Virus record (IMG/VR): IMGVR_UViG_3300006846_000047
Span: 1 to 33,322 of that record
Length of the DNA: 33,322 nucleotides
Source of the DNA: a virus
Strand: one strand, 5' to 3'
Shown here: positions 2,583 through 9,639 of the stretch, piece by piece
Numbering within the stretch: the stretch's first letter is position 1
How the letters are laid out: every line of letters begins with the position of its first letter
Notes under the pieces: generated by a model
The model's input: only the letters and a program-made list of their open reading frames with translations
The model's database searches: none
Told to the model about the DNA's origin: nothing
Translations under genes and position numbers: made by a program

Positions 2583-3247
2583 GAATCCGCTCCGACAACG
2601 ATCGCCACACCCTGCTGCTTCACGACATGCACCAGGAATACACGGGCGACTTCGGCAATCACAACTCCAACTTCGAATCCACCAAGCCGGCGAACTCGAC
2701 GATCTGGGGCGACTGCGAACTCTTCTGGGACAGCTATGGGGTCTCACACACGCTCGCCGAGTTGCGAGGGGTTACCGAAGACCAGGGGAATACGCTGGCC
2801 CTCTCGGTGATTCGGACCATGCTCCCCGCTGAGTTCATTGACCGTGAGGGAGGCCCCGATGCGGTCACTGGGGTCTGGAGGCTGACCGGATCAATCGCCT
2901 TCCTGGAGATGAAGTTCCTCCAGTTGAAGGAAGCCCTCGATGTTGACTATGTCTCCGGGGACGACGACGCCTTCGATTACTGGCCCAACACGATGGACAT
3001 GCTCTGGGACTTCGCCCTCGACCTCGATGCGCTGACTCAGACCAAGCTCCACACAGGCCAGGTACACGAAGTAGCACGCAAGGTCTTCGAGGGGACGATC
3101 AACCGACGCTACTATGACGATCGGCCCAATACCGCCGAGGAGATCGCTGAGCAACGCGAGCTCTTCCTCCAGGAATGGGGGCTCAACTACCCCGATGGGG
3201 AGAATGAGTCCTGGAATTCCTGGTACTTGAAGGAGAATCAGGCATGA
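2579..3247 (+). CDS. Acidic hypothetical protein, 222 aa
   Basis: Starts at the ATGA overlap with the previous gene and ends in an ATGA overlap with the next. It is one of the largest proteins of the left arm. It is acidic, with many Asn, Asp and Trp residues, a central hydrophobic section (about 95-125) and a mixed helical second half. No zinc, nucleotide-binding or nuclease motif is visible. The coupling suggests it is made together with its two downstream neighbours. Confidence 0.75.
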   Translation: MRIRSDNDRHTLLLHDMHQEYTGDFGNHNSNFESTKPANSTIWGDCELFWDSYGVSHTLAELRGVTEDQGNTLALSVIRTMLPAEFIDREGGPDAVTGVWRLTGSIAFLEMKFLQLKEALDVDYVSGDDDAFDYWPNTMDMLWDFALDLDALTQTKLHTGQVHEVARKVFEGTINRRYYDDRPNTAEEIAEQRELFLQEWGLNYPDGENESWNSWYLKENQA

Positions 3248-3636
3248 CAGCCGAACAGGACTACATCATCAACAAGCTCTCGGTACGCGAGGAGGTCGAG
3301 GAAAACCTGCTCTCCTTCTTCGACGAGGTCGACGACTGGGCTGCTGATGTCACTCAGGACTTCCAGCGAGTTCCCTGGGGCGATCAGGACGTGCGGCTCT
3401 GGGCGCTTGGGTTCTACTTCGATCCCGAACGACAGAGGGAGGCCGACGACTGGGACCTCTGCGAAATGACCGAGGCTCCGATCATCGACTTGGTCCGCTA
3501 CTTCGAGGAACTCGGCTTGACCAAGGACACGATCCAGCCCGACCGCACCATCGAACGCAGCATCACCGATCTACCCACTGTGTGGGAGGGCCTCAAGGCC
3601 GCCTGCACCCGCCTCGCTGAAGGGGACTCTACATGA
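3244..3636 (+). CDS. Acidic hypothetical protein, 130 aa
   Basis: 4-nt overlaps (ATGA) on both sides. The product is strongly acidic and helix-prone, rich in Glu, Asp, Trp and Phe. Its character resembles the preceding 222-aa protein, and the two could be partners. No family recognised. DNA-mimic or anti-host proteins of phages are often this acidic, but nothing in the sequence proves that role here. Confidence 0.7.
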   Translation: MTAEQDYIINKLSVREEVEENLLSFFDEVDDWAADVTQDFQRVPWGDQDVRLWALGFYFDPERQREADDWDLCEMTEAPIIDLVRYFEELGLTKDTIQPDRTIERSITDLPTVWEGLKAACTRLAEGDST

Positions 3637-3827
3637 AATCCGCATACTTCGACTACGGGCGTTGCCTCACCACACCCAATGACGGGAAGCCGGCGTACCG
3701 TGCTCTCCGACACCGGGGCACCGTCCAACGCATGCTCTGGATCGGTGGGTGGTGGTTCTGCCTGCGGAATCGCAAATCCGCCCAGGCGGTCAAGGCTGCC
3801 CAGAAGAAAAGGATCAACAATGCCTAA
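3633..3827 (+). CDS. Small basic hypothetical protein, 64 aa
   Basis: Starts at the ATGA overlap with the acidic gene upstream. Basic, with a central aromatic stretch (about 34-44, with Met/Trp/Ile/Gly/Phe) and a Lys/Ala-rich C-terminus. The hydrophobic stretch is short for a membrane segment. The pairing of an acidic protein with a following basic one is notable, but no function is recognised. Its last 8 nt overlap the next gene. Confidence 0.6.
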   Translation: MKSAYFDYGRCLTTPNDGKPAYRALRHRGTVQRMLWIGGWWFCLRNRKSAQAVKAAQKKRINNA

Positions 3828-4098
3828 GGCCCCGTTCGACAACGAGCACATCGAGGTGGAGGGCCTGGAGGGCAAACGCTGCCGCATCCACTACCTCCAG
3901 CCGGGCCAGAAGCTGCCCCGAGAACTGATCGGGGTCGTGCTGGGAACCTCTGACATCTGGCCCGAGCGACTCTCCATCTCCCTCCGACCCAAGGCCGGAA
4001 CCACTGAACTGAAGTTCGAGTGGATCCTCGGGATGTGGATCACCGAGGCACCGATCAAGTTGCCCGAGCCGATCAAGGCCGAACGGAGGGTGTACTGA
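3820..4098 (+). CDS. Hypothetical protein, 92 aa
   Basis: The start is set at ATG 3820, preceded by AAAAGGA; longer in-frame starts lie fully within the previous gene. The product is mixed alpha/beta, with a Leu/Pro/Gly-rich middle and a basic C-terminus. The first half resembles small beta-barrel proteins in residue pattern only. Part of the P2 operon, one nt before the next gene's start. No family recognised. Confidence 0.65.
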   Translation: MPKAPFDNEHIEVEGLEGKRCRIHYLQPGQKLPRELIGVVLGTSDIWPERLSISLRPKAGTTELKFEWILGMWITEAPIKLPEPIKAERRVY

Positions 4099-4399: not shown

Positions 4400-4961
4400 T
4401 GGATATACCTGGCAGGAAGTCAACCGACCAGAGCTGGGGGTCAGTCCGCCCAAGATTGACGAGACCGACCAAGCCCAGCTGACCAACGCCTGGTTCGGCC
4501 GCCACCCGGGGATGCCCGACGACGAGAAGCTACAACACACCTTCGACACCATCAACCGCATCCTCGAGGCCCGACACACGACCAACCTCAACCGGATCGT
4601 GTGGCACGCGGGAGATCCCTGCGGGGATGAGCCTCGCTGGGTGGAGGAGATCAAGCAGGACGGAGGCCACTTCCTCGCCATCTGCCCCGATTGCTCGAGG
4701 GACTTCATCCCAACCCGGGAGGCCTACCAAGGCCGCAACTTCATGGGTGCTCCCCTCTACCAGCACTGGGGCTACGAAAGTTACCGAGGCTGGACGGAAT
4801 GCCACCGCCCCGCAATCCTCGAAACCTTATGGGCCGTGCGAGGTGCTGCGAAGAAGCTAGATAAGTGGCACCCGGCATTCATCAAGAACCGACACACCGG
4901 CCTCTGGCGCAAGATCGACAACACCAACCTGGCAACCGACGGAAGGGATACCAATGGCTGA
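4392..4961 (+). CDS. Hypothetical protein with a possible Cys/His metal site, 189 aa
   Basis: ATG 4392 is preceded by GGAAGGGAGAA and overlaps the previous gene by 8 nt. A central segment contains C-G-D-E-P-R-W (about 76-82), then CPDC (about 101-104) with His residues between and after, suggesting a zinc site. The C-terminal third is rich in Trp, Tyr and His (about 125-175). Not recognised as a known nuclease. It overlaps the following gene by 8 nt. Confidence 0.7.
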   Translation: MGDGYTWQEVNRPELGVSPPKIDETDQAQLTNAWFGRHPGMPDDEKLQHTFDTINRILEARHTTNLNRIVWHAGDPCGDEPRWVEEIKQDGGHFLAICPDCSRDFIPTREAYQGRNFMGAPLYQHWGYESYRGWTECHRPAILETLWAVRGAAKKLDKWHPAFIKNRHTGLWRKIDNTNLATDGRDTNG

Positions 4962-5337
4962 GAAGCAGCTAAGCATGAGGGAGCAAGGCCAACTGGCCGG
5001 AAGGCGGAGGGAGGTGGGGGACAAGCTCGGGTGGCTCAATGAGCTCCGAGCAGGCATGACCATGGAGGAACTGGATGAGGTGGACAAGGTCCTCAACACC
5101 AGCCTCCAAGTGACTGCCCGAGGGGCTCGGGAAGAAATCGAACGCTTCGCCCACCTTCTCCTCCGAGCCGCAGGCCGCCACCCCATCGACGAGGGGAAGG
5201 GTTACGACATGGACAACGCCACCGTCACGCGGTTTCTGACCATGATCCGACCCTCGATGCGATCCATCCTGCAGGTAACGGGCACCCTCAATTGGCCCCT
5301 GCCCGCTTGCGAGGATGACTCAGCGGGCGACGGGTAG
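4954..5337 (+). CDS. Helical hypothetical protein, 127 aa
   Basis: ATG 4954 overlaps the previous stop by 8 nt, with GGAAGGG upstream. The product looks all-helical: Met/Glu/Arg/Leu-rich amphipathic helices across residues 1-80, then a shorter C-terminal region. It could be a small oligomeric or DNA-associated protein. No family recognised. This ends the run of tightly overlapping genes; a 76-nt gap follows. Confidence 0.7.
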   Translation: MAEKQLSMREQGQLAGRRREVGDKLGWLNELRAGMTMEELDEVDKVLNTSLQVTARGAREEIERFAHLLLRAAGRHPIDEGKGYDMDNATVTRFLTMIRPSMRSILQVTGTLNWPLPACEDDSAGDG

Positions 5338-5384
5338 GCTACCTGGGGAATCCGGGAAATGCGTGCGTGGGGGCGAATAGGGTG

Positions 5385-5417
5385 ATGATGAAACCGAACG
5401 AGAGGGACAAACCGTGA
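5385..5417 (+). CDS. Possible 10-aa leader peptide
   Basis: A tiny frame, ATG ATG AAA CCG ... CCG TGA, sits in the 76-nt gap after a GGGTG ribosome-like site. Its stop overlaps the GTG start at 5414 in the GTGA arrangement used throughout this genome. It may serve for translational coupling rather than make a functional peptide. It could be coincidental, so confidence is low. Confidence 0.25.
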   Translation: MMKPNERDKP

Positions 5418-5611
5418 GGGACGGACGGGACATGAACACGGGATGGTTCACCCGCAGGGACGATGGGTCTCGAGGGCGCTGGACGTGGAGTTGGACCAAC
5501 TGGACCTTCGGCGTCTGGTGGTACACAACTTCCATCAAGAAGATCAAACTCTTCGGGCTCGACCTGGGGCCTCTAGAATACGTCAGGCGCAGACCGAATA
5601 GAAGGGACTGA
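5414..5611 (+). CDS. Small Trp-rich hypothetical protein, 65 aa
   Basis: GTG 5414 follows GAGAGGGA with good spacing; an in-frame ATG at 5432 is an alternative. The product is basic and very rich in Trp (about 7 in 65 residues), with the pattern GRWTWSWTNW near residue 22-31 and a basic C-terminus. The aromatic stretch is not hydrophobic enough for a convincing transmembrane helix. No family recognised. Followed three nt later by the next small gene. Confidence 0.55.
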   Translation: MRDGRDMNTGWFTRRDDGSRGRWTWSWTNWTFGVWWYTTSIKKIKLFGLDLGPLEYVRRRPNRRD

Positions 5612-5614
5612 CCG

Positions 5615-5737
5615 ATGGGAGACCTCATATGGGTATGGTGGGCCTGCCCATCTTGCCCGGTAGATGAAGACAAGCCCGGTAAGTGTGGGGTCTGCGGAAG
5701 GGACCTCGTGAGAAAGACAAAGAAGAGGAAGGGATAA
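5615..5737 (+). CDS. Small zinc-ribbon protein, 40 aa
   Basis: ATG 5615, preceded by GAAGGGACTGACCG, runs to TAA at 5735-5737. The product has an N-terminal Trp-rich stretch, then CPSC and CGVC pairs (residues about 11-14 and 24-27) separated by an acidic linker, and a Lys/Arg-rich tail. Two CxxC knuckles in 40 residues are typical of a minimal zinc ribbon; the basic tail would suit nucleic acid. The role is inference. Confidence 0.65.
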   Translation: MGDLIWVWWACPSCPVDEDKPGKCGVCGRDLVRKTKKRKG

Positions 5738-5744
5738 ACTGAGG

Positions 5745-6101
5745 ATGCCAGTACGCCGAACAACCATCCGCCACGACCAGATACGTAGGTATCTGACGGG
5801 TGTGGAAATCCTGCCGGATGAGCACACCAGCCTGGACCTACACATCTCCGACCTGCTCAACGCGGTGAGAGTCCCCGCCATTGGGCCTCAAGAGTATACG
5901 GTCGAGAAGATCGTGGTCCATTACACCGACGGGCGACAGATAACCTACGAGAGAATGGGCCTACCTGAGGGACTCTCGGGCAGGGAGCGACAAATTTGGA
6001 AGCGGGACCATTTTCACGAGATCTACGGTGCGGGCCCGGGGCCACTTACCGACGGTATCTTCCCGGATGCGAACGGGGGAGCCGATCCTAAAGAAAGTTG
6101 A
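5745..6101 (+). CDS. Hypothetical protein, 118 aa
   Basis: ATG 5745 with GAGG just upstream. The N-terminal half alternates charged and hydrophobic residues (beta-strand-like, with a central VHYTDGRQITYERM-type hairpin). The C-terminal part is Gly/Pro/Asp-rich and probably flexible. Last gene before an 800-nt stretch without convincing genes. No family recognised. Confidence 0.65.
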   Translation: MPVRRTTIRHDQIRRYLTGVEILPDEHTSLDLHISDLLNAVRVPAIGPQEYTVEKIVVHYTDGRQITYERMGLPEGLSGRERQIWKRDHFHEIYGAGPGPLTDGIFPDANGGADPKES

Positions 6102-6237
6102 TCGGGTCGAGTCAGGGACGTGAGTGGGGGAGTTAAGTCGGGGAGAGTGAGCCGACGTGAGTGCCAACTGCATGGATACTCGTGCCGACATACCTGATGA
6201 GTGAGAGGGGCATCGCTGACGCAAGGTGAGTTAGAGC

Positions 6238-6284
6238 TGAGTGAGTGAGTGATAGCTATTTATAGCATCACGCTCACTCACTCA
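6238..6284 (+). repeat. GAGT-armed long hairpin, copy 1
   Basis: TGAGTGAGTGAG (6238-6249) pairs perfectly with CTCACTCACTCA (6273-6284). Inside, TGAT (6250-6253) pairs with ATCA (6267-6270) and GCTA (6255-6258) with TAGC (6263-6266), around a TTTA loop. That gives 20 bp with a CG bulge and an A bulge. The same 12-bp arms and overall architecture recur at 29449-29503. It has no U-tract, so a classical terminator is unlikely; an RNA processing site, a mRNA 3'-end stabiliser or a protein target is possible. Confidence 0.75.
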
Positions 6285-6723
6285 CTCACTCGCACCGATG
6301 CTTGGGGGCTTTTGGGTTGGGATTGATGAAAGGATGGGATGATGAGATTGGGATGATGGGTTAGGGATGAACAAAAAGTTGGGAAGAGAAGAAGTGGGCC
6401 GGGTCTTGGTCGTGGGGGGCGACTGAGGCCCGGCTTACTCGTGTGTAGGTGGGTAGACGGGTGACCGGTACGTGGGATGAGGAAAAGGACCGGTTGGTTG
6501 GATACGCGGCTGGGAAGAAACTTGAAGGTTATGCGAACGGGGACGGGTGAAACTTCCGGGAACGCTCGGAGCGGAACGAACGCGGCGAGAACGTTGTTCA
6601 GAGCTGCTGCCATTTGGGATGGGACGGACCGTGACCCGGTACTTCCGACTCCGAGCCAGAGCCGAGACTCCAGCCGGGTACCTTCCGCCGCCAACCAGAA
6701 CCGATGATCCGGTGGTGGCGCCA
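6285..6723. other. Apparently non-coding G-run region
   Basis: No gene can be supported in 6102-6909 apart from the elements listed. From 6304 to 6418 the + strand has about eleven runs of three or more G in 115 nt, in a loosely repeating GATGGGATGA-like context, giving G-quadruplex potential. The rest (6419-6723) is GC-rich. Short frames exist on both strands but lack ribosome sites and plausible composition. It may be a long untranslated region or a structured RNA. Confidence 0.4.
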
Positions 6724-6789
6724 TGCGGCCGCCTCGGACCGAGCGATGGACCGGTGCGGTCCGCTACAGGAAACCGCGGACGGGCCGCA
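6724..6789 (+). ncRNA. Possible branched RNA/DNA fold upstream of P3
   Basis: A perfect 7-bp closing stem (TGCGGCC 6724-6730 with GGCCGCA 6783-6789) encloses two small hairpins: CTCG/CGAG at 6733-6743 and GGACCG-GTG-CGGTCC at 6748-6762. The closed element is 66 nt, close to tRNA size, but there is no T-loop and no recognisable anticodon arm, so I do not call it a tRNA. It ends 10 nt before the conserved element at 6800. A chance fold in GC-rich DNA remains possible. Confidence 0.35.
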
Positions 6790-6799
6790 GGGAAACATT

Positions 6800-6816
6800 T
6801 TGTACCTTTTTGTGCC
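6800..6816 (+). promoter_or_regulatory. Upstream promoter element TTGTACCTTTTTGTGCC, copy 2
   Basis: Identical over 17 bp to 567-583 and again 7 nt before a GTGACA -35 box; the nearby GACG before the -35 is shared too. See copy 1 for interpretation. Confidence 0.6.
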
Positions 6817-6823
6817 TGAGACG

Positions 6824-6852
6824 GTGACAAGGTGTAAGGGTTTTGATATGAT
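6824..6852 (+). promoter_or_regulatory. Promoter P3 (GTGACA - 17 bp - TGA TATGAT)
   Basis: GTGACA at 6824-6829 and TATGAT at 6847-6852, with a TGA extension. The TTTTGATATGAT core nearly repeats that of P2. It would drive the 6910-7763 genes through a leader of about 50 nt ending in the GAAAGGGATGCA box (6895-6906). Confidence 0.7.
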
Positions 6853-6909
6853 GGGGTATCAAATGAGGGGGAACAAACGAACGCCCTCAAACACGAAAGG
6901 GATGCAAAG

Positions 6910-7059
6910 ATGCAAAAGCGATCGAGGTTGAAGTGGCCACCGCGCACCCGGCAACCCGCTCGGGCAGTCAAGGTCACCAAGATCAATCCGCTCTACGGGC
7001 CTGCGGTTTGCGATCACCGCGAACTCCACGCTCGCCTGGTTAACGGGAAGGCCTTCTGA
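6910..7059 (+). CDS. Small basic hypothetical protein, 49 aa
   Basis: ATG 6910 is 8 nt after GAAAGGG (6895-6901), in the same leader context as the genes at 2397 and 8622. The stop TGA 7057-7059 shares one base with the ATG of the SprT-like gene. The product is basic (Arg/Lys-rich N-terminus) with a single Cys-Asp-His cluster near the middle (about residue 35-37). It is probably nucleic-acid associated; no family recognised. Confidence 0.65.
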   Translation: MQKRSRLKWPPRTRQPARAVKVTKINPLYGPAVCDHRELHARLVNGKAF

Positions 7060-7424
7060 TGCAACTCTCGGATGCTTCCCGACTCGCACACCGCGAACTT
7101 GAGCGGCACGGGCTGACCGAGAGGGGGTGGACCTTCGGCTTCGACCAAGGGTCCCGCCGCTTCGGGTGCTGCCGATACCGCACCAAGCAGATCACCCTCT
7201 CGAGGGTCTGCACGCTGGCCAACGACGAGGCGACCGTCCTCCGGGTGATCCTCCACGAGGTCGCCCACGCGCTTCACATCCTCGAGGGCAACCCTCCGGG
7301 GCACGATGCACGCTGGTCCGCCATCTGCAAGGCCATTGGCGGGGATGGCCAACGCATCATCCACGACTCAGCACCCATCCCTCGCCGGGTTGGGATCTCG
7401 ATCCGCGACATCGGAAAGGGCTGA
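7059..7424 (+). CDS. SprT-like zinc metallopeptidase
   Basis: The 121-aa product has the metalloprotease signature HEVAH at residues 66-70, followed by a third likely zinc ligand at H82 in the GHDARW context. Before it comes the family-typical segment FGCCRYRTKQITLS (35-48). This is the layout of the compact SprT/SprT-like domain (zincin fold; relatives include bacterial SprT and the eukaryotic DNA-protein crosslink protease SPRTN). It lacks the C-terminal zinc ribbon of longer members. A role in cleaving DNA-bound proteins or a host factor is inference. It is coupled to the genes on both sides. Confidence 0.88.
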   Translation: MQLSDASRLAHRELERHGLTERGWTFGFDQGSRRFGCCRYRTKQITLSRVCTLANDEATVLRVILHEVAHALHILEGNPPGHDARWSAICKAIGGDGQRIIHDSAPIPRRVGISIRDIGKG

Positions 7425-7425
7425 C

Positions 7426-7500
7426 ATGGCCACCTACCGCTTCATGCTCTGGCTCACCCACTTCTGGTGCGCCCTGACCCGGGAAAGGTACGAGACATGA
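7426..7500 (+). CDS. 24-aa hydrophobic peptide
   Basis: ATG 7426 lies 6 nt after GAAAGGG and the stop overlaps the next start (ATGA at 7497-7500). The peptide has a hydrophobic aromatic core (Met, Leu, Trp, Phe at residues 6-17) and a charged C-terminus, so it could associate with membrane. The strong ribosome site and both junctions argue it is translated; it may mainly couple translation. Confidence 0.5.
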   Translation: MATYRFMLWLTHFWCALTRERYET

Positions 7501-7763
7501 CCTACCGCCAAAGGATCTGGCTCACCATCGGGCTTTCCGCCACCTTCGTACTCGGTGTGGGAGTGGGTGTGACGGGCCAGATTGAGCACGCCAAGGAATC
7601 GACTGACTCCAAGCACATCATGTACGAGGGGACCCGGACGACACCTGCGCTGGTCAACCACATCGCCAATGAGGTCTGGAACGCGCAGAAGTACGCCGAC
7701 TGGTGCGGCGGCTACGTGCAGGTTATCGGGACCGACGTCATGGTCGAGGGGTGCGACCGGTAA
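7497..7763 (+). CDS. N-terminally membrane-anchored small protein, 88 aa
   Basis: ATG 7497 overlaps the previous stop (ATGA). After a short basic start (MTYRQR) comes a hydrophobic Gly/Val-rich segment (residues about 7-27), either a signal anchor or an uncleaved transmembrane helix. The remaining about 60 residues would then face outside; they contain two Cys (W-C-G-G and E-G-C-D near the end) that could form a disulfide. No family recognised. Surface exclusion is one possible role. Confidence 0.65.
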   Translation: MTYRQRIWLTIGLSATFVLGVGVGVTGQIEHAKESTDSKHIMYEGTRTTPALVNHIANEVWNAQKYADWCGGYVQVIGTDVMVEGCDR

Positions 7764-7767
7764 GGCG

Positions 7768-7811
7768 AGTCAAGGAGTCAACCCGGGAGGCAAAGTCAAG
7801 GAGTTCCTTGA
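7768..7811 (+). promoter_or_regulatory. Operator: direct repeat AGTCAAGGAGT and inverted repeat over P4
   Basis: AGTCAAGGAGT occurs at 7768-7778 and again at 7794-7804 (26 bp apart). The second copy extends into a perfect inverted repeat, TCAAGGA-GT-TCCTTGA (7796-7811), whose right arm overlaps the -35 hexamer of P4. This is a typical repressor-site geometry. The product of the gene just downstream, an HTH protein, is the obvious candidate for autoregulation. Confidence 0.7.
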
Positions 7812-7836
7812 CATTGGCTACTCGGTTTGATACAAT
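7808..7836 (+). promoter_or_regulatory. Promoter P4 (TTGACA - 17 bp - TGA TACAAT)
   Basis: A near-consensus sigma-70-type promoter: TTGACA 7808-7813, 17 bp, TACAAT 7831-7836, with a TGA extension. It is the best-matching promoter in the window, and the inverted repeat at 7796-7811 overlaps its -35. Confidence 0.85.
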
Positions 7837-7875
7837 CTACTCATGATCAACCGACGCCCGGAAGGGGGTGACAAA

Positions 7876-8148
7876 ATGGCAACCAAGACTCTCACCGTGA
7901 AGGAAGTCGCGGAAATGATCGGCACCGATGGCCGCACTCTCCGCAAGTTCCTGCGCCACGAGGTGACCGAGGCCGGCGGAAAGGTCGGCGAGGACACCCC
8001 GGGCAAGGGTGGACGGTACTCGCTCGAGTCCACGAAGGTCAAGCAGCTGCAGAAGCGCTTCGACGCGTGGAACGAGTCACGCCGCTCCAAGCCCGAGGCC
8101 GAGACCGACGAAGAGACCTCCTCGGAGGTCGAGGTCGAGCTCGACTGA
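7876..8148 (+). CDS. Small HTH DNA-binding protein 1
   Basis: ATG 7876 lies 7 nt after GGAAGGGGG. An in-frame ATG at 7843 would be almost exactly at the transcription start of P4 and is less likely. The 90-aa product has an N-terminal helix-turn-helix (LTVKEVAEMIG then TDGRTLRKFLR, residues 6-27) followed by a glycine-rich, wing-like GKGGRY motif (about 43-48), then a helix and an acidic Glu-rich tail. This arrangement is common in actinophage small regulators of excisionase/MerR-like type. It is paralogous to the gene at 8622. Probably binds the operator at 7768-7811. Confidence 0.8.
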   Translation: MATKTLTVKEVAEMIGTDGRTLRKFLRHEVTEAGGKVGEDTPGKGGRYSLESTKVKQLQKRFDAWNESRRSKPEAETDEETSSEVEVELD

Positions 8149-8160
8149 GGCCACCGCGCT

Positions 8161-8270
8161 CCAGCCCACCGCATCCCGGGCTGGGGCGCCGTGGTGTAGC
8201 GTGAAGAGCCAGCGTGCCCGCTGGCTACGCGGGCCCGCGTGAGCGTGCAGAGCTAGCGGTCCTGGGGACC
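8161..8270. repeat. Cluster of perfect hairpins
   Basis: Four perfect inverted repeats lie side by side: CCAGCCC/GGGCTGG (8161-8184), AGCCAGCG-TGCC-CGCTGGCT (8207-8226), the 14-bp palindrome ACGCGGGCCCGCGT (8227-8240) and GGTCC-TGG-GGACC (8258-8270). None has a T-tract. They sit between the first HTH gene and the phased decamer array. They could fold as the 3' UTR of the HTH1 transcript or extrude as DNA cruciforms at an origin. Confidence 0.7.
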
Positions 8271-8300
8271 AAGTGGGTCCCGTGGAGATAAGGGGGTAAA

Positions 8301-8420
8301 CCGGACAAACCACGACAAACCCGAACAAACCACGACAAACCCGGACAACTCTGTACTAACCCTGCCAAATCGGACATTCTCGTACAAACTACACAGATAC
8401 CACCCGAAACCACCCGAAAC
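8301..8420. repeat. Helically phased decamer array (ACAAAC iterons)
   Basis: An ACAAAC core repeats at exactly 10-bp steps: 8305-8310, 8315-8320, 8325-8330 and 8335-8340. Degenerate copies follow in the next decamers (8341-8400), ending with two copies of CACCCGAAAC (8401-8420). The first four units also form a 20-bp repeat (CCGRACAAACCACGACAAAC, twice). Exact one-turn spacing puts every copy on the same face of the helix, as in iterons, centromere-like sites or intrinsically curved DNA. Confidence 0.8.
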
Positions 8421-8480
8421 TCCGCATCGCGGGCGGTTTGGGATGGCGCGGGATGGATGCGGCATCGGGGGCAAATCGGA

Positions 8481-8525
8481 CATCATGATGCGTCGGTCGC
8501 ATCATCCATCATGATGCATCATGAT
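8481..8525. repeat. CATCATGATG palindromes upstream of HTH2
   Basis: CATCATGATG, a perfect 10-bp palindrome, is at 8481-8490 and 8507-8516, with the overlapping near-copy GCATCATGAT at 8516-8525. Further copies flank the other side of the HTH2 gene (8881-8890, 9034-9043, 9102-9111). Probable binding sites for a dimeric regulator, most simply HTH2 itself. Confidence 0.7.
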
Positions 8526-8539
8526 TCATGAGATTTCGC

Positions 8540-8568
8540 TTGCTTCGCTGACGCATCGCGATTAGTGT
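8540..8568 (+). promoter_or_regulatory. Promoter P5 (TTGCTT - 17 bp - TAGTGT)
   Basis: TTGCTT 8540-8545 and TAGTGT 8563-8568, 17 bp apart, upstream of the second HTH gene. The matches are moderate. A reverse CATGCGATGCG motif lies downstream at 8592-8602, followed by the GAAAGGGATGCA ribosome box (8607-8618). Confidence 0.5.
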
Positions 8569-8621
8569 GACCCGTGAGCGATACGCACCGGCGCATCGCA
8601 TGACCCGAAAGGGATGCACTC

Positions 8622-8870
8622 ATGAGCGATTCAGCAAAGGGACTCACCGGGACCGAAATGGCGAATCTCATCGGGGCCGACCCGAAGGACTTTCGGCGTT
8701 TCGTGCGTCAGGTCACCTCGAAGGACCAACAGCCCGGCTCGGGGCGTCGGTACGCTTTCGACGCATCGGAGGCGGACGATTGGGCGGAGGCTTACGCCAA
8801 TCACGCCAAGCGTGCGGGACGTGCGCCCATCAGCATCGCCGACGTGAAAGGCGACGAGACTGACGCCTAA
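8622..8870 (+). CDS. Small HTH DNA-binding protein 2
   Basis: ATG 8622 is 8 nt after GAAAGGG. The 82-aa product has the same design as HTH1: a helix-turn-helix (LTGTEMANLIG then ADPKDFRRFVR, residues 8-29), a Gly/Arg wing-like motif GSGRRYAF (about 39-46) and a charged C-terminal helix, but a shorter linker and a less acidic tail. The gene is enclosed by CATCATGATG palindromes on both sides and ends in a strong terminator, so it forms a monocistronic unit. Regulator, replication-initiation or partition adaptor are all possible. Confidence 0.8.
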   Translation: MSDSAKGLTGTEMANLIGADPKDFRRFVRQVTSKDQQPGSGRRYAFDASEADDWAEAYANHAKRAGRAPISIADVKGDETDA

Positions 8871-8891
8871 TCATCATCGGGCATCATGATT

Positions 8892-8918
8892 AGGGGCGCC
8901 CTTCGGGGCGCCCCTTTC
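8892..8918 (+). terminator. Intrinsic terminator with UUCG tetraloop after HTH2
   Basis: AGGGGCGCCC (8892-8901) and GGGCGCCCCT (8906-8915) form a perfect 10-bp stem around the loop TTCG, followed by TTTCATTT. It ends the HTH2 transcript and faces the leftward operon ending at 9349. Confidence 0.93.
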
Positions 8919-9348
8919 ATTTGTCTACTGATGCATAATGATAAGTCAGCTCGCATCATTAATCATATTGCATCAGACGCCCTACGATGCACTCTAATGC
9001 GATGATGCCGCATGATAGTGTCCAGTACCACACCATCATGATGCGTGCGTTAGATCGCCTCTCATGCGTGTCTGCTGCGAAATGCGTGCGTGCGTGCGTC
9101 GCATCATGATGAGCGCATCTGCCGCATATCCCCCCAACCCCCCCATCTCGCTGAAATCGCCCATACCGCCGCGCATCCCGGACGGGGGCTCCCGCGGTCT
9201 GGCTGTAATTTTTGAAACCTACCTACACCGTTCATGCCCAAACACTCCGAGCCCTCCAGGTCCTCACAATCAGCCGACTCCACACTCTTCCAAGCACTCA
9301 CGACTCCACACACACCACCACCGCACTCCTCGACCCACCTCAAGAGTC
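8919..9348. other. Convergent intergenic region with repeated GCATCAT/CATCATGATG sites
   Basis: No supported gene. Locally AT-richer than its surroundings at 8919-9020, with many GCAT/ATGC words, then CATCATGATG at 9034-9043 and 9102-9111, and a (GCGT)4 run at 9084-9099. The part 9120-9348 is C-rich on the + strand (GT-rich on the - strand). It is probably the 3' untranslated tail of the leftward operon. No clear leftward terminator was found. Confidence 0.6.
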
Positions 9349-9639
9349 CTAGCCCTCCGGGTCTTTGGGATCGAAGAATGCGGCAGCACCGTGTAAGTTA
9401 TGGGCAGCTACGATCTCTTCGTTGGTATGGTCAGCACAGGCAAAGGCAATGGCACCGTCCTTCACCCACCTCGTCTCCAACTCCACCGGCCGAGCGAAGC
9501 TGGTTGGGAACTCATGCCAGAGTCCACTACTTCTCACATCAACACTCCCCTGCGGCGGCCCCAAAGCCAACGTACTAAACTCCTCGCCGCAGACAATGCA
9601 CCTACTCCTGCCCAAACCTTCCCGTCCGATCAGAGTCAT
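9349..9639 (-). CDS. Zinc-finger-like hypothetical protein, 96 aa
   Basis: ATG at 9639 (minus strand) overlaps the stop of the upstream 28-aa gene (ATGA), with GGGGGATG as ribosome site; a longer GTG start at 9660 is less likely. Residues about 12-15 are C-I-V-C, and a later C-A-D-H (about 66-69) could complete a CCCH-type metal site. The middle is Ser/Gly/Arg-rich. Last gene of the leftward operon. No family recognised. Confidence 0.7.
   Translation of the reverse strand: MTLIGREGLGRSRCIVCGEEFSTLALGPPQGSVDVRSSGLWHEFPTSFARPVELETRWVKDGAIAFACADHTNEEIVAAHNLHGAAAFFDPKDPEG

Follow-up and report, generated by a model that had tools for sequence, protein, structure and literature searches.

The CATCATGATG palindromes that surround a small helix-turn-helix (HTH) gene in the 33,322-base viral record analysed here (the window) are explained best, and with moderate confidence, as a dispersed binding-site array of an HTH protein that controls an early gene module of the terminal-repeat type. 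Across the whole record exact copies of CATCATGATG number four, with none away from the gene, hereafter HTH2. This matches the preliminary description at all four positions, and within this record the count that it proposed confines the exact motif to the array near HTH2. Two one-mismatch copies, both CATCATGATT, exist as had been described, although each lies one base higher than was given, at 8517-8526 and 8882-8891. The features of the array are as follows.

8301-8348, unstranded: iteron-like tandem array of CCGGACAAAC, period 10 bp, 4.8 copies, upstream of the palindromes
8456-8466, unstranded: inverted repeat GATGCGGCATC, ATGC half-sites with a 1-bp spacer
8481-8490, unstranded: palindrome CATCATGATG, upstream cluster, exact match
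8507-8516, unstranded: palindrome CATCATGATG, overlapping the 16-bp perfect palindrome TCATGATGCATCATGA at 8509-8524
8517-8526, unstranded: near-copy CATCATGATT, in tandem with 8507-8516 at a 10-bp period
8882-8891, unstranded: near-copy CATCATGATT, past the HTH2 stop codon and ahead of the terminator
9002-9016, unstranded: ATGATGCCGCATGAT, which holds the inverted repeat ATGC-C-GCAT
9034-9043, unstranded: palindrome CATCATGATG, downstream cluster
9102-9111, unstranded: palindrome CATCATGATG, downstream cluster

The exact and near-copy sites are confined to 631 bp around HTH2. All six share the core ATCATGAT, every copy of which in the record (6 of 6) lies inside 8482-9110; the outer C is present at the left of all six and the outer G at the right of four. 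The 16-bp palindrome results from the tandem placement of the sites at 8507 and 8517, and the near-copy at 8882-8891 forms the right arm of a dyad, CTAATCAT..ATGATTAG, at 8867-8893. A copy with two mismatches is found at 8934-8943. The half-sites GATGC/GCATC occur 22 times in 830 bp against about 2.5 expected, an enrichment of about nine-fold. Repeats resembling GGACAAATCGGACA, akin to the iterons at 8301-8348, are also observed around the HTH gene of one related locus (L029).

The array could not be reproduced from local composition. Dinucleotide shuffling of the whole window (300 rounds) never yielded a 10-bp palindrome with over three occurrences, and in 2000 local shuffles none exceeded two. 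Four copies of CATCATGATG did not arise once in 3000 trials per model with Markov models of order 1, 2 or 3 that were trained on 8301-9230 itself (a model of order 4 was overfitted and uninformative). The array is therefore real and not a by-product of the local di- to tetranucleotide content. No match was returned for 8150-9300 by DNA similarity to known phages or for 5200-9500 from Rfam, and a literature search on the palindromes found nothing relevant. A scan of the sequence collection for paired CATCATGATG returned 87 stretches, which carry no weight in the argument.

HTH2 lies within the array and is followed by its own terminator, in agreement with the earlier report of palindromes on both sides of a lone HTH gene. 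The genes and signals that bear on the argument are listed here.

7808-7836, plus strand: HTH1 promoter, TTGACA-17-TACAAT, with the ATG 6 nt downstream, leaderless type
7843-8148, plus strand: HTH1, 101 aa, paralogue of HTH2, phrog_21603 (E 5.5e-13)
8622-8870, plus strand: HTH2, 82 aa, phrog_21603 family, predicted small MerR-like winged helix
8892-8915, plus strand: intrinsic terminator of HTH2, 10-bp stem, TTCATTTG tail

The match of HTH2 to the phrog_21603 profile has an E of 2.8e-8, and the protein also matches an HTH DNA-binding family. The gene stands alone, the next likely genes to its right run leftward, and no sigma-70-like promoter was found for it. An operator-like inverted repeat, GTCAAGGA-GT-TCCTTGAC at 7795-7812, overlaps the -35 element of the HTH1 promoter. 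Further to the left, 6105-7055 is a long gap with no clear gene, G-rich and with a GC skew of up to 0.23, that carries short repeats such as TGGGATGATGAGAT and GATGCAAA; it may belong to the same end-zone as the array. The record covers part of an actinobacteriophage genome: its terminase, portal, major capsid and tape measure proteins match phage families, the capsid protein being closest to that of Arthrobacter phage Wollypog, followed by Gordonia, Curtobacterium and Microbacterium phages. No end repeats were found in its 33,322 bases.

The predicted structure of HTH2 was modelled with moderate confidence (pLDDT 77) and comprises a helix-turn-helix, a wing-like loop and a long helix. It superposes best, albeit weakly, on DNA-bound RacA, HiNmlR and other MerR-type domains. 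The best Foldseek match is the RacA-DNA complex (probability 0.98, with a weak E of 0.064), and the structural matches, which reach at best a weak Z of 5.5, include the gpNu1 fold (Z 3.8) and the Par-centromere domain of pSK1. No Pfam match, and so none to MerR/HTH_17 above the gathering score, was obtained for HTH2, and its relatives gave only weak HTH_17/MerR_1 hits. The predicted fold thus resembles that of RacA, BldC and other MerR-superfamily winged-helix proteins, but HTH2 has only 82 residues, lacking a sensor or long coiled coil, and its best structural matches share about 10–20% sequence identity, with scores too weak to place it in the MerR superfamily. Because the structural scores are weak, the fold does not settle the function of HTH2.

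No close homologue of HTH2 was found in viral contigs, so that the CATCATGATG array itself is known from a single genome. The phrog_21603 family can, however, be traced through HTH1-like members at 18 loci in viral contigs, using a closer HTH alignment since the first was too diverse; all 18 aligned members match the profile. Named phages that also carry the family are Shrew, Triscuit and Huwbert. No relatives were confirmed in bacterial genomes. About a dozen further phage records have palindrome arrays next to genes of this family. There the palindrome is the 14-bp GWATGCYRGCATWC, with up to 13 copies per contig; it was first chosen by eye and tested afterwards. The form ATGCYRGCAT has 52 sites in 13 records; an HTH gene lies no more than 3 kb away from 47 of them, where 16.1 would be expected. 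HTH-bearing records contain 10.98 sites per 100 kb, capsid-related loci that have no HTH gene 1.23. The nearness to HTH genes could reflect confinement of the palindromes to a noncoding-rich zone. The dyad extends to G-W-ATGC-YR-GCAT-W-C, the second flanking pair being complementary in 41 of the 52 sites and G-C in 38 of those, and this outer symmetry looks like that of a protein dimer site.

The sites of the relatives occupy intergenic linkers, commonly past a terminator or 40–75 bp upstream of the next -35 element, and up to 13 of them are spread over 8 kb at about one per gene boundary. The linkers carry a recurrent element, a terminator followed by GGGGCGT..TCTGAGGGGG..GGGG and then GWATGCYRGCATWC, roughly one per gene boundary, in L163, L165, L167, L170, L176, L179-L181, L030, L142 and L156. 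A sequence model of this element found no match in the window. As the linker consensus is absent and the window core ATCATGAT is not that of the relatives, the likeness is one of arrangement and not of sequence. The helix region reads GADPKDFRRF in HTH2 versus GTDxRTxRKF in most relatives, and the site sequence differs where the HTH2 protein differs. On these comparisons, palindromes beside and downstream of the HTH genes are a family trait whose core varies between lineages.

The position of the family in complete genomes suggests what kind of module is controlled. Comparison of genome ends identified exact direct terminal repeats of 4512 bp in Shrew (L030 1-4512 and the right-end copy), 3811 bp in Huwbert and 3795 bp in Triscuit (the latter two recorded under L195 and L197, respectively). 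Each repeat in these three complete genomes contains one or two HTH genes, which are consequently present at both genome ends. By analogy, 8.3–9.2 kb of the window may be the terminal repeat of its phage. Tyrosine and serine integrases (PF00589, PF00239) were not found in the window, itself a fragment, or in 12 related records that include two complete genomes, and the relatives look lytic. The terminal redundancy of SPO1 is a host-takeover module (PMC10531801, PMC6873191, PMC8208478) and, like the repeats described here, places small early genes, including one for an acidic DNA-mimic protein, in the terminal repeats of a lytic phage. SPO1 is unrelated to these phages, and the window region, part of a fragment, has a putative place in a terminal repeat. 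An early zone of the host-takeover type, as in SPO1, is a better fit than the immunity region of a prophage.

Among known phage systems, the nearest in layout are the stoperators of cluster A mycobacteriophages, asymmetric sites bound by a monomeric immunity repressor and distributed genome-wide in temperate phages (PMC9283540, PMC6550527). In both cases many copies of one phage-repressor site (a presumptive one in the window) are dispersed on phage DNA, some away from promoters. The window sites differ in being perfect palindromes confined to 8481-9111 of a 33-kb fragment, and the protein here is a small MerR-like winged HTH, with no integrase found. That no integrase was found in the 13 records, together with the HTH genes in the terminal repeats of three complete genomes, disfavours an immunity array. 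Of the larger nucleoprotein complex that was first proposed, the multi-site array is retained; its immunity version is disfavoured, and a ParA-based partition complex finds no support, as no ParA-type ATPase (PF13614, AAA_31) was found in the 13 records, the window among them being a fragment.

In the proposed operator array, the palindromes would be bound, through a half-site close to ATCAT/GCATCA, by a small winged-helix regulator that the phage encodes and that belongs to the phrog_21603 family. HTH2 itself, as a dimer or in pairs, would be the simplest binder, and we infer that it binds CATCATGATG and that binding represses; HTH1 could be the binder instead. With sites on either side of the HTH2 transcription unit, such a multi-site operator array would regulate HTH2 and its neighbours in the early gene zone, most likely by repression. 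Transcription might be lowered by bridging of the two clusters, about 0.4–0.6 kb apart, and a silencing loop is possible.

An unlikely alternative, though the strongest of those considered, is that the palindromes have no cognate protein and are a symptom of a regional grammar that disfavours AG, GG, GT and their complements, which would leave the end-zone rich in CATG, GATG and GCAT, and so in palindromes. In the related records, sense-strand AG, GG and GT are nearly or wholly missing from gene-length blocks that lie next to phrog_21603 HTH genes or within terminal repeats. These blocks, and the milder depletion in the window, are listed below.

L029, 5782-6844 (1063 nt with one occurrence) and 4490-4800: AG/GG/GT-poor blocks
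L145, 7566-7963 and 8400-8837: AG/GG/GT-free blocks; 398 and 438 nt with none
L147, 6330-6749: AG/GG/GT-free block; 420 nt with none
L158, 7573-8116: AG/GG/GT-poor block; 544 nt with one
L159, 8522-9709: AG/GG/GT-poor region, including 673 nt with two
L030 (Shrew), 2713-3952: AG/GG/GT-poor block; 1240 nt with five, part of it free on both strands
Window, 8351-9110, unstranded: two-strand depletion of AG/GG/GT and CT/CC/AC, O/E 0.73 and 0.75, mainly noncoding

The longest AG/GG/GT-free run in 324 kb of control loci is 81 nt, and in scans of full records the long blocks fall either close to HTH genes or within terminal repeats. Twelve blocks pooled with Shrew left out (5060 nt) hold 4 AG, 4 GG and 1 GT, and no other 4-mer is missing. 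The strand of a block matches the direction of its gene, as is also seen where opposite-strand blocks abut in L159, and a terminator often marks the block end. Because the three words are nearly absent from the coding strand, the proteins are made without glycine or valine; both residues are absent from twelve genes, 11 of which stand at the lowest count reachable with synonymous codons, while Shrew 2947-3282 is one above that minimum. Recoding the same genes with the codon usage of their own contig gives 10 to 31 occurrences on average. Homologous proteins of L158 and L145 both obey the avoidance, whereas the Huwbert homologue has 42 occurrences, so the avoidance is set by the genome and not by the protein. 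The genes may be escaping an endoribonuclease that acts at AG/GG/GU, as suggested by the leaderless appearance of most of them. The block begins near the start codon in some genes and includes the promoter in others, and a promoter that is also free of the words, as in several cases, is not predicted by an RNA-level cause. No protein family or literature that explains the avoidance was found.

For the window, the depletion at 8351-9110 is the deepest trough of the record (O/E sum 1.48, versus a lowest value of 1.80 in 1552 other 760-bp intervals), and the Shrew terminal repeat, an extreme of the same grammar, holds both CATCATGATG and ATGATGCATCAT. Against this, the region-trained Markov models of order 1–3 never give four copies, and masking of GATG/CATC/GCAT/ATGC lifts the O/E values to 0.87 and 0.90, so that part of the trough is due to the palindromic words themselves. 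The window contains no avoidance block, only the mild two-strand deficit of this region. That HTH2 itself obeys the avoidance was ruled out by synonymous recoding, its codons being unbiased with 49 occurrences observed against 49.6. It is similarly doubtful that the array belongs to an end-zone grammar which avoids a nuclease or binding protein acting on AG/GG/GT. In that case the palindromes would be signals of one system together with the HTH proteins and the G-rich linkers, and the window phage would represent it in weak or decaying form.

Slightly less likely again is a replication origin or a packaging or terminus element, at which the palindromes and the 8301-8348 iterons would bind a replication or terminase protein. 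Besides the iteron-like array, the weak match of HTH2 to the terminase small subunit family phrog_57 (E 3.7e-5), the gpNu1 fold among its structural matches, the place of the family in the terminal repeats of complete genomes and the position of the downstream half of the array between convergent genes all point this way. However, HTH2 is the only one of the 18 members to match the terminase family, versus 18 of 18 for phrog_21603, and palindromes spread over 8 kb at about one per gene boundary, as in the relatives, are unlike an origin or pac site. There is little likelihood that the palindromes are recombination or linker sequences bordering exchangeable single-gene cassettes: many units of the relatives do come with a promoter and terminator of their own, and a palindrome-bearing linker lies between them, but no tyrosine or serine recombinase was found in the 13 records and the dyad symmetry of the sites resembles that of a protein-dimer site. 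RacA binds scattered palindromes, and a RacA-like partition or anchoring site would accord with the RacA-DNA and pSK1 matches, yet it is very improbable given the weakness of those matches (Z 5.5 or less), the lack of a PF13614 match in the 13 records and the lytic appearance of the relatives, in which no integrase was found.

The avoidance seen in the relatives has a significance of its own, in that whole genes in unrelated phages lose every glycine and valine codon through a near-complete avoidance of AG, GG and GT, for which no previous report was found; its selector is likely a strong, unknown phage-host interaction. As for the operator array, HTH2 and CATCATGATG provide a candidate pair of protein and binding site in an HTH family of actinobacteriophages that is still uncharacterised and whose arrays lie past terminators and upstream of promoters and not solely at promoters.
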